A stretch of DNA of 64,000 nucleotides from Myxococcota bacterium (GTDB taxonomy: Bacteria > Myxococcota_A > Bradymonadia > UBA7976 > UBA1532). Under the pieces are notes generated by a model. The model was not told the origin of the DNA, did not search any database, and worked only from the letters and a program-made list of their open reading frames with translations. The position numbers and the translations under genes were made by a program. The stretch lies in the NCBI GenBank assembly GCA_963169045.1, contig CAUJDF010000028.1:186001-250000 (forward strand). The letters run 5' to 3'. Below are positions 32,476 through 34,981 of the stretch, one piece after another (the stretch's first letter is position 1; each line of letters starts with the position of its first letter).

Positions 32476-33195
32476 TCAGCCGGGCGCGACGACGATGAGG
32501 CCGACGTCGGCGGCGAAGGCCATCGCGCGCAGCGCCGCCTCGGCGGGCTGCCCGATCGACGCGGCGGCCGCCACCGGGTCGAGGCCCTCGGCGGCCACCT
32601 TCAGCGCGAACAGCAGGTCGTCGGTCGCCACCTGGTACATCACGCGGCCGGTGCGCGGGTGCCGGAACAGGAAGGTGAGCTGCGGCGTGGCCAGCGGCGC
32701 GGGGGGCGGCTCGCGGCGGCCGGCGTTCCACGCCTTCACGAAGCCGGCGACGGGGTGCGCGAGCTGCAGCACCGCCGCGGTCGGGTTGGGCGCCGGCGCG
32801 GTGGGATGCGCGGGCATCTCCGCCGGGTGCGCGTAGGCGGCGAACTCCTCCCACTCGAACGACGCGAGGTCGACGTGGAACGGCAGCAGGCCCTCGTGCC
32901 GCCCGACCTGCGTCTCGAGCCACGCCGGGAAGGACTCGGCGGCGGCGTTCAGCTCCCAGTGGCCGGGCGGGACGTCGCGGAAGTAGGCGTCGCTCAGCGC
33001 CGGCCAGACGGGCGCCAGGAGCTCGCGCGTGACGACGAAGTTCTTGTCGAGCGCCGTCTGCACGTGGCCGCGCACGAAGTCGCGGTAGATGGCGAGGCGG
33101 CGCGGGTCGCAGCCGAGCGCCGCCGCGCCGGCCTCGACCGCGTCGTCGCCGCGCAGCACGCGGTGGAACGTCGCCTGGAGCGCCGCGAGCTTCAC
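32476..33195 (-). CDS. bufC: BufC/HvfC-type DUF2063 partner of the MNIO enzyme
   Basis: A 239-residue protein of the DUF2063 family. The N-terminal domain has the typical AALQATFHRVL, RRLAIYRDFVRGHV, LAPVWPALSDAYFRDVPP and SFPAWLE segments; the C-terminal half has the RRE-like region (LTFLFRHPRTGRVMY). In bufferin and Hvf systems BufC binds the precursor and presents it to BufB for Cys oxidation. The GTG start overlaps the bufB stop as GTGA, so the two are made in step. Confidence 0.88.
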   Translation of the reverse strand: MKLAALQATFHRVLRGDDAVEAGAAALGCDPRRLAIYRDFVRGHVQTALDKNFVVTRELLAPVWPALSDAYFRDVPPGHWELNAAAESFPAWLETQVGRHEGLLPFHVDLASFEWEEFAAYAHPAEMPAHPTAPAPNPTAAVLQLAHPVAGFVKAWNAGRREPPPAPLATPQLTFLFRHPRTGRVMYQVATDDLLFALKVAAEGLDPVAAAASIGQPAEAALRAMAFAADVGLIVVAPG

Positions 33196-34028
33196 GACCG
33201 GGCCCTCGCCGCCGTCTCGCGGATGCGCGCGTTCTCTTCGAGCAGGCGATCGAGGGGCGGCACGTCGTGGTCCCACTCGAGCAGCGTCGCGACGGGGCCG
33301 GTGCGCGCGATCGTGTGCGCATAGAGGTCGTAGACCTCGTCGCAGATGGCCGCGCCGTGCGTGTCGATGATCACGTGGCCGAGGTCGCGGTGGCCCGCGA
33401 GGTGGATCTGGACCACGCGCTCGTGCGGCACCGCGTCGATGAAGGCGCGCGCGTCGTACCCGTGGTTGCGGGCGTTGACGTACACGTTGTTCACGTCGAG
33501 CAGGAGGCCGCAGTCGGCGCGCTCGACGACGGCGCGCAGGAACTCGGCCTCGGACATCTCGGCGCCCGCGTACCGCACGTAGTAGCTCGGGTTCTCGAGC
33601 AGGAACGGGCAGTCGACGCGCGCCTGCAGCTGCCGCACGCGCGCCGCGACGTGCTCGACGGCCTCCTCGGTGAAGGGCAGCGGCACGAGGTCGTGGTAGT
33701 CGACGCCGAAGGCCGAGCTGAAGCAGAGGTGGTCGCTGAACCAGCGCGGCCGGATCTCGTCGACGAGCGCCGCGATCGCCTCGACGTAGTCCTCGCGCAG
33801 GGGATCGACGCTGCCGATCGACAGCGCCGTCCCGTGGAGCACGAGCGGGAACTCGGCCGCCGCGCGCCGCAGCACGTCGCGCGGCCGGCCGCCGAACGCC
33901 ATGAAGTTCTCGGTCAGGATCTCGAGGAAGTCGACTTGCGCGCGCCGGTCGAAGATCTCGTCGAAGTGCTGCCGCCGCAGGCCGAGGCCGAAGCCGAGGT
34001 CGGGCAGGGCGCGCCAACGATCGGTCAA
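33192..34028 (-). CDS. bufB: BufB/HvfB-type MNIO (DUF692) oxidative enzyme
   Basis: A 278-residue TIM-barrel protein of the multinuclear non-haem iron family (DUF692). Seen directly: GFGLGLRRQHFDEIF, DFLEILTENF, LHGTALSIGS, FSDHLCFS, FLLENPSYY, LLLDVNNVYVNARNHG, QIHLAGH and DTHGAA, the His/Asp/Glu/Asn residues that ligate iron. Relatives (MbnB, TglH, BufB) oxidise peptide Cys into heterocycles or thiol-derived groups. The TTG start was chosen because GGAG lies 7 nt upstream and the family begins here. The precursor gene ends 52 bases upstream and bufC overlaps the end. Confidence 0.92.
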   Translation of the reverse strand: MTDRWRALPDLGFGLGLRRQHFDEIFDRRAQVDFLEILTENFMAFGGRPRDVLRRAAAEFPLVLHGTALSIGSVDPLREDYVEAIAALVDEIRPRWFSDHLCFSSAFGVDYHDLVPLPFTEEAVEHVAARVRQLQARVDCPFLLENPSYYVRYAGAEMSEAEFLRAVVERADCGLLLDVNNVYVNARNHGYDARAFIDAVPHERVVQIHLAGHRDLGHVIIDTHGAAICDEVYDLYAHTIARTGPVATLLEWDHDVPPLDRLLEENARIRETAARARS

Positions 34029-34080
34029 GGCGGGACTCCGGTGTCGGAGCGCGGCGCCCGCCGGGGCAGGCGCCGGAAGG

Positions 34081-34347
34081 TCAACCGCCGCAGGAGCCGG
34101 CGCCGCAGCTGTGCTCGCCGCCCTCGGCCGGCTTCGCCTCGCCGCCCTCGGCGGGCGTCGCCTCGCCGCCCTCGGCGGGCGTCGCCTCGCCACCGCAGGC
34201 CTTCGCCGCGCCCTCGGCCGCGGCCGCCGCGGGGGCCGCCTCGGCCTCCGGCGCCTTCGGGGCGCCGCCACAGGCGGCCAGCGTCAGGCCACCGAGCGCG
34301 ATCGTGAGGGCAGCCGTCGACACGGACATCTTGTTGCCACGCTTCAT
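34081..34347 (-). CDS. Bufferin-like lipoprotein precursor peptide
   Basis: An 88-residue peptide: lipobox signal (LGGLTLAACGGA), an Ala/Glu-rich stretch, KACGG, two to three 8-residue GGEATPAE repeats and the Cys-rich end HSCGAGSCGG. Size, signal sequence and a C-terminal CG-X2-CG pattern match precursors modified by DUF692 enzymes (DUF2282/HvfA/BufA types, which often carry EGKCG repeats). Unusual here are the lipobox instead of a simple cleavage site and Ser in place of Lys. The ATG at 34347 has CAGG about 9 nt upstream. A metal-sequestering lipopeptide is the likely product. Confidence 0.7.
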   Translation of the reverse strand: MKRGNKMSVSTAALTIALGGLTLAACGGAPKAPEAEAAPAAAAAEGAAKACGGEATPAEGGEATPAEGGEAKPAEGGEHSCGAGSCGG

Positions 34348-34555: not shown

Positions 34556-34981
34556 ATGGCCCGTTCGCGGCTCTCGATCGAACGTCAGTACGTGCGCTCG
34601 CTCTCCTACGAGGCGCACGACGTCCCGGCGGTGTTCGCCGAGGTCGAGGGCCACCCCGACGTGATCGGCAAGGTCGGCGTCGACGTCGCGCTGCTCGACG
34701 ACGACCTGTACGAGGTCGTCCTGCGGCTCGTGGTGGCGAGCGGCCCCGAGGACCAGCCTCTCTTCGAGATCGATCTGGAGTACGCCGCCGTCGTGCGCGT
34801 CGACGACGTGATCGGCAGCGCCGCGTCGTCGCTGCTGCGGGTCGAGGTGCCGGCGCTGCTGTTCCCGTTCGCGCGCAACCTGGTCGCGAACATCACCGCC
34901 GAGAGCGGCTTCCCGCCCGTCCTGCTCGACCCCATCCGCTTCGGCGCGTCGTTCGACGGCCCCGAGCCCGCCGAGGCCTGA
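34556..34981 (+). CDS. secB: SecB-like export chaperone
   Basis: A 141-residue protein with the SecB pattern: RQYVRSLSYEAHDVPAVFAE at the start, VGVDVALLDDDLYEVVLRLV in the middle, FEIDLEYAAVVRVDDV, then LLFPFARNLVANITAESGFP and LLDPIRF at the end. SecB tetramers hold preproteins unfolded and pass them to SecA. Length is slightly below the usual ~155. The ATG follows GGAGG. It is divergent from the bufferin-like cluster, whose precursor is itself exported; a functional link is only suggested. Confidence 0.88.
   Translation: MARSRLSIERQYVRSLSYEAHDVPAVFAEVEGHPDVIGKVGVDVALLDDDLYEVVLRLVVASGPEDQPLFEIDLEYAAVVRVDDVIGSAASSLLRVEVPALLFPFARNLVANITAESGFPPVLLDPIRFGASFDGPEPAEA

Follow-up and report, generated by a model that had tools for sequence, protein, structure and literature searches.

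A three-gene operon for a probable lipidated captophorin with a Ser-Cys-Gly core in a Myxococcota bacterium

Gene organization and genomic neighborhood

The window analyzed here (the whole stretch of 64,000 nucleotides from a Myxococcota genome) contains three consecutive genes on the minus strand, arranged in A-B-C order: a gene for an 88-residue RiPP precursor of the BufA/HvfA-like type (ATG start; 34081-34347, including the stop codon), a gene for an MNIO (DUF692) enzyme of the BufB type (TTG start; 33192-34028) and a gene for a partner protein with DUF2063 and RRE domains (PME1, BufC/HvfC type; GTG start; 32476-33195). The MNIO gene begins 52 bases past the stop codon of the precursor gene, and the GTG start of the DUF2063 gene overlaps the TGA stop of the MNIO gene. 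A first-pass annotation of this DNA had named the same elements, and the open reading frames bore out its coordinates, all on the minus strand. Planctomycetota was rejected as the source phylum, since the planctomycete hallmark PSD1 is missing from the genome.

The gene downstream of the DUF2063 gene is convergent, and no same-strand gene is present there. A DoxX gene is frequent, though not universal, in bufferin and oxazolin operons. We found none in the operon, as the first pass had noted, and a search of ten genomes gave no DoxX match on their MNIO contigs; the DoxX genes of the window's genome lie on other contigs. The operon has no linked copper or stress genes, either in the window or in most of the relatives checked, and a search for conserved neighboring genes around the operon found none. 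An AhpC/TSA peroxiredoxin gene comes after the operon in one relative of the same class (G019). Promoter and terminator scans at the operon returned nothing.

A SecB gene (34556-34981, plus strand; PF02556, E = 1.8e-31) lies divergently and directly upstream of the Sec-exported precursor. Its role as a dedicated export partner or part of the cluster was rejected, because no SecB match was present near the operon at any other locus fetched. A conserved hairpin between the precursor and MNIO genes is not claimed either: the window has a 10-bp stem with a z-score of only -1.7, and values beyond -3 were seen only in G011 and L060.

The precursor peptide and its core motif

The precursor (given here in two parts, MKRGNKMSVSTAALTIALGGLTLAAC and GGAPKAPEAEAAPAAAAAEGAAKACGGEATPAEGGEATPAEGGEAKPAEGGEHSCGAGSCGG) is composed of a signal peptide that ends in a lipobox, a low-complexity spacer and a cysteine core with the C-terminal end EHSCGAGSCGG. 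The n- and h-region of the signal peptide (MKRGNKMSVSTAALTIALGGLT; 34282-34347, on the minus strand like all features of the precursor) is followed by the lipobox Leu-Ala-Ala-Cys (LAAC; 34270-34281), in which Cys26 is the predicted lipid anchor, with Gly at +2. The core has three cysteines, each followed by Gly and none preceded by Lys: Cys51 (AKACGG; 34195-34197), Cys81 (EHSCGA; 34105-34107), whose Glu at -3 and Gly at +1 match those of EGKCG, and Cys86 (AGSCGG; 34090-34092). The alignment columns of Cys81 and Cys86 are invariant.

A Cys-free 24-bp tandem repeat (34114-34191; 3.2 copies, 96% matches) encodes GGEATPAE units of the spacer. The first pass had listed this repeat among the distinguishing traits of the precursor. 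It is indeed present, but it is no feature of the family, being absent from the relatives, which carry extra Cys motifs in the same region. This could mean that the window copy is decaying, most of its modifiable cysteines having been lost to the tandem spacer with little functional product left, and the number of core cysteines (three versus four to seven in most relatives) would agree with such a loss. However, all three open reading frames are intact, the enzyme and partner genes overlap in translation, the alignment columns of the last two cysteines do not vary, and three-Cys cores also occur elsewhere (L056 and Myxococcus L062); decay is thus very unlikely.

No Pfam or NCBIfam model matched the window precursor. 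The DUF2282 and HvfA models failed, and neither the precursor nor its seven relatives had a Pfam match, PF10048 (DUF2282) included, in agreement with the earlier statement that a DUF2282 domain is missing. The model NF050137 (KCGExKCG_twice) reached E = 0.078 in only one of the eight members of the precursor family. The nearest NCBIfam match of the window precursor was LptM (E = 0.063, below the cut-off), and it covered the signal peptide only.

Nearly all precursors of the family have a lipobox and three to seven core cysteines that follow the pattern E-[K/G]-[S/K]-C-G, and the core cysteines with their flanking Glu and Gly are conserved and multiplied in orthologues. Of 55 core cysteines from eleven precursors, 36 have Glu at -3 and 54 have Gly at +1, and the residue at -1 is Ser for 29 and Lys for 13; some relatives (G012 and G006) carry EGKCG. 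In FonBC, Ala, Arg and Thr are tolerated at the Lys position and Phe and Glu are harmful, a small residue is needed after Cys, and an NVCGG repeat was modified once (PMC12668002). Judged from the sequences, the family core follows the published EGKCG code except that the Lys position is relaxed and often holds Ser, and the window sites EHSCG, AGSCG and AKACG fit the FonBC rules, though two of the three lack Glu at -3. The replacement of KCG by SCG that had been pointed out for this precursor is therefore real in the window, but it is better described as a shift within the known code, because most sites in the family retain Glu at -3 and Gly at +1 and FonBC tolerates Ala and Thr in place of Lys.

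The MNIO enzyme and its partner protein

The MNIO enzyme matched PF05114 with 358.6 bits (E = 2e-107) and passed the curated bufferin-maturase model of NCBIfam (NF050167, MNIO_BufB; 338.3 bits, cut-off 310), whereas its score was below the cut-off of HvfB (PRK05409; 290.8 bits, cut-off 360). Alignment showed that it retains the conserved blocks of the di-iron enzyme 3BWW, a close HvfB relative. The residues whose roles in FonB are described in PMC12668002 were mapped via this alignment and that description, not via the FonB sequence itself. On this basis, Arg18 and Arg19 are kept as the counterparts of FonB Arg15 and Arg16, and the enzyme has EWD-His (Trp before and His254 after the catalytic Asp) where FonB-type (Lys-Cys) enzymes have ERD-Phe; the enzymes of the relatives have Asn or Gln after the Asp. 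In a maximum-likelihood tree of 89 MNIOs, the window enzyme fell in a 10-member clade with support of 100/97. Another pairing of core motif and enzyme residue was seen at L067-L086 (Melainabacteria and relatives), where many ERD-Gln MNIOs lie beside unlipidated precursors of repeated KEGSCKG units.

With His for Phe and Trp for Arg, the product could differ from 5-thiooxazole. The enzyme pair may modify the peptide and yet give another product or role, such as a different Cys modification, binding of another metal, redox stress or surface signaling. Besides the residue after the catalytic Asp (His here and Asn or Gln in relatives, not Phe), such a reading could draw on the absence of linked copper genes, the peroxiredoxin gene after the operon in G019 and the many reactions that the MNIO family catalyzes (PMC12452194). 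We nevertheless regard it as rather unlikely, given that the enzyme belongs to the BufB equivalog, that all characterized MNIO-PME1 pairs give 5-thiooxazole and generally bind copper (PMC12668002), and that FonB still yielded thiooxazole when its Phe was changed to Asp or Ala (PMC12668002).

The partner protein matched PF09836 above the cut-off (51.9 bits, E = 9.5e-14) and stayed below that of the HvfC model (61 bits, cut-off 142). Its AlphaFold2 model (pLDDT 96) has a C-terminal strand/helix domain and was matched by Foldseek to TglI (2.9e-6) and to 3DEE, a PME1 (7.5e-6); by sequence search alone, 3DEE reached only E = 0.065. Its predicted structure shares the fold of 3DEE and TglI, both known partners of MNIOs. 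Every DUF2063 match in the genomes searched adjoins an MNIO.

Distribution of the operon and of the lipobox

Orthologous precursors of the lipoprotein type were found directly upstream of MNIO and DUF2063 genes in five genomes of the same family (G005, G011, G012, G002 and G006) and in G019; in G009, the contig stops short of the precursor position. The comparison of DUF692 neighborhoods proposed by the first pass thus recovered the A-B-C order with an orthologous precursor in all six genomes, so the arrangement in the window is not due to chance.

Lipoboxes were called by pattern. Eight of the nine clade members with a precursor found have one, the exception being L056 with an SPI-type signal. 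Since the lipobox is kept across the clade of the enzyme, its presence in the window is no chance trait of a single precursor. The earlier reading of the locus as a RiPP operon that pairs an MNIO with a DUF2063 protein and has a precursor of the lipoprotein type was upheld. A related set of lipobox-bearing precursors, with EGSCGAGSCGG cores, is present in Myxococcus, Archangium and Corallococcus. Many other MNIO-linked precursors in the phylum sample, CKG-type among them, also carry lipoboxes, so that lipidation, as predicted from these patterns, is common in this lineage and no peculiarity of the window. In the same phylum, lipobox precursors upstream of MNIOs were also observed at L170, L171, L172, L179, L180, L183 and L186, several with CKG or CCKG cores, so that predicted lipidation in this lineage extends to more than a single type of precursor.

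The lipobox was found in 22 of the 27 rows with EWD enzymes versus 3 of the 37 others. A coupling of the enzyme Trp with the lipobox was rejected, and the association is at present read as shared ancestry, because it comprises just four independent pairs on the tree and the sign test was not significant. At three acidobacterial loci (L125, L134 and L135), a membrane protein of about 330 residues with a Gly/Ser/Cys-rich tail (GCGGGCGGGCS type) precedes the MNIO; these proteins resemble the description of TIGR04222.

The signal peptide as a probable leader

A leader profile was built from the signal peptides minus the lipobox, leaving out the tested sequence each time, and was compared with 314 control signal peptides, the lipoprotein controls being taken from the fetched loci. 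The window signal peptide scored 32.1 bits versus 11.1 for the best control. Eight of the nine left-out groups scored above every control, including L056 with its SPI end, and G045 fell short. A signal peptide that also served as the RiPP leader should be conserved in this way. Shared ancestry may account for part of the score, but the spacer that follows the signal peptide is barely conserved. Removal of the Sec signal of HvfA largely abolishes modification (PMC13419390), and according to work cited in the same paper, the bufferin signal peptide doubles as a leader. The signal peptide of the window precursor is a probable RiPP leader.

Stand-alone precursors

The precursor profile matched in 13 of the 379 genomes of the phylum sample, and all 13 have an MNIO, compared with 205 of the 379 overall. 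The matches include stand-alone copies in two genomes that also have an MNIO-linked precursor. In one of them (G226, contig C415, 5376-5615; L156/L160), an SPI site replaces the lipobox while the rest of the signal peptide is kept; the other (G019, contig C370, 2444-2689; L143/L155) has a lipobox. Further matches in G137 and G323 lie near contig ends and are little informative. By eye, an ECF-type sigma factor gene was noticed near the stand-alone precursors at L143 (G019) and L153 (G323); Buf1 operons are also sigma-linked.

The genome of the window (G000) encodes, outside the window, a Cys-repeat peptide (contig C28, 60496-60771; locus L159, 5497-5784) that contains KKCGGEKACGGEKACGG, has an SPI-type signal (ATAAE) and the end AEKKCGGEKACGGEKACGGDHK, and has neither a lipobox nor an MNIO neighbor. 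Its signal peptide did not fit the leader profile (2.3 bits, with 42 of 360 controls as high). This peptide is a possible second, soluble, stand-alone precursor and a candidate substrate of the same enzyme. The first pass had named homologs without DUF692 neighbors as evidence that would speak against a RiPP cluster. Such homologs do exist in G226 and G019 and, less surely, in G000, but they do not refute the RiPP reading, because an MNIO is encoded in all 13 matching genomes and bufferin precursors that stand alone have already been reported.

It could also be argued that the 88-residue protein is an ordinary small lipoprotein and that the true substrate lies elsewhere, for example in the stand-alone soluble paralogue of the same genome. 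The sole near-match in NCBIfam is LptM, though below the cut-off, non-RiPP (e.g., LptM-like) lipoproteins occur beside some bufferin clusters (clusters V-IX in PMC12636315), and the second Cys-repeat peptide of the genome has no lipobox. However, the LptM-like match does not extend beyond the signal peptide, the core cysteines and their flanking Glu and Gly are conserved and multiplied in the orthologues of a gene that stands first in the A-B-C order, and the signal of the stand-alone peptide misfits the leader profile. We consider this explanation highly improbable.

Discussion

The operon probably encodes a lineage-specific version of a captophorin and of its lipidation, both of which were described in 2024-2026. 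The genomic features of this peptide family are all found at the locus: an MNIO gene adjoining the precursor gene, a partner of the DUF2063 and RRE type, and an upstream Cys-rich precursor with a Sec signal. The lipidated precursor as such, which had been put forward as a novelty, is not one, since lipidated MNIO RiPPs have already been described (PMC12452194, PMC12636315): about 16% of the Buf2 bufferins have been predicted to be lipoproteins (PMC12452194), and the lipidated EGKCG oxazolin NedA has been isolated in triacylated form, carrying modifications at three sites (PMC12636315).

The operon resembles those of the oxazolins or EGKCG captophorins (HvfABC, FonABC, NgoABC and NedABC) in its A-B-C order, the Sec-type signal as leader, the Arg-Arg pair of the MNIO, the PME1 partner, the repeated Cys-Gly core and the Glu three residues before Cys; as in NedA, the precursor is an SPII lipoprotein, here by pattern. 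It differs from them in having Ser (or Ala) instead of Lys before Cys and EWD-His/Asn/Gln instead of ERD-Phe in the enzyme, in the absence of DoxX and of an HvfA model match, and in HvfB and HvfC scores below the cut-offs. Regarding the residues typical of oxazolin and HvfB enzymes, Arg-Arg is present, whereas Asp-Phe is replaced by Asp-His. With the bufferins Buf1 and Buf2 (BufABC), it shares an enzyme that passes the BufB equivalog, a signal peptide and a PME1 partner, and some Buf2 are likewise predicted to be lipidated. In contrast to Buf1, the precursor has no DUF2282 (PF10048), and in contrast to Buf2, it lacks the six conserved cysteines and the CKG pattern and has three core cysteines, each followed by Gly; unlike in bufferins, the operon has no DoxX or sigma/anti-sigma genes. 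The DAG-RiPPs (DybA/DybH, chryseobasin type) also combine a RiPP core with a lipoprotein signal peptide and an N-terminal Cys predicted to be triacylated, and their SPII lipobox is found here by pattern (LAAC; eight of nine clade members). However, DybH is a ChrH-type MNIO that works without a partner and forms a macrocycle at CPACGMG, a motif absent here.

With a probability of roughly 74%, we interpret the locus as a minimal A-B-C operon that makes a lipidated captophorin, an envelope-tethered, copper-buffering 5-thiooxazole metallophore RiPP of the bufferin/oxazolin kind. The gene order, the family membership of the enzyme and its partner, the conserved lipobox, the signal peptide and the E-x-[S/K]-C-G core come from the computation presented here; the chemistry, the binding of the leader by the RRE, the lipidation steps, copper binding and a role in stress are proposed by analogy with characterized relatives. 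The signal peptide, acting as the leader, would first be bound by the RRE domain of the partner in the cytoplasm, and the di-iron MNIO would then oxidize Cys51, Cys81 and Cys86 to 5-thiooxazoles in four-electron steps (-4 Da each), as relatives do (PMC12668002, PMC13419390). The modified peptide would then be exported by Sec, receive diacylglycerol on Cys26, be cut by signal peptidase II and become anchored in the envelope; Lgt/LspA/Lnt processing was shown for DybA and NedA (PMC12636315). There, the thiooxazole thiols may bind and buffer excess Cu(I). The proposed copper role draws on knowledge of the family, since no copper gene was linked to the operon in the neighborhoods checked.

It is also conceivable, though rather unlikely, that one enzyme pair serves two precursors, an operon-encoded lipid-anchored one and a stand-alone soluble periplasmic one (G000 contig C28, 60496-60771, and G226), giving tethered and free thiooxazole copper buffers, and that the EWD-His/Asn clade recognizes Ser-Cys-Gly rather than Lys-Cys-Gly sites.

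In the main texts consulted, we found no description of the Ser-Cys-Gly precursor subfamily with its EWD-[His/Asn/Gln] enzyme clade; the subfamily may stand in a published supplement that lists hundreds of unclassified Cys-bearing open reading frames before MNIO genes. What appears new is this unmodelled precursor subfamily, its enzyme clade and the possible soluble stand-alone second precursor in the same genome. Our results thus add to the captophorins a subfamily of putatively lipidated E-x-Ser-Cys-Gly precursors and an enzyme clade that current genome-annotation models miss. They also offer a natural test of how the residue accepted before Cys depends on the one that follows the catalytic Asp, and of whether a conserved signal peptide acts as leader with either an SPII or an SPI end. 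If the lipidation is true, copper buffering at the membrane face would be common rather than exceptional in this lineage.
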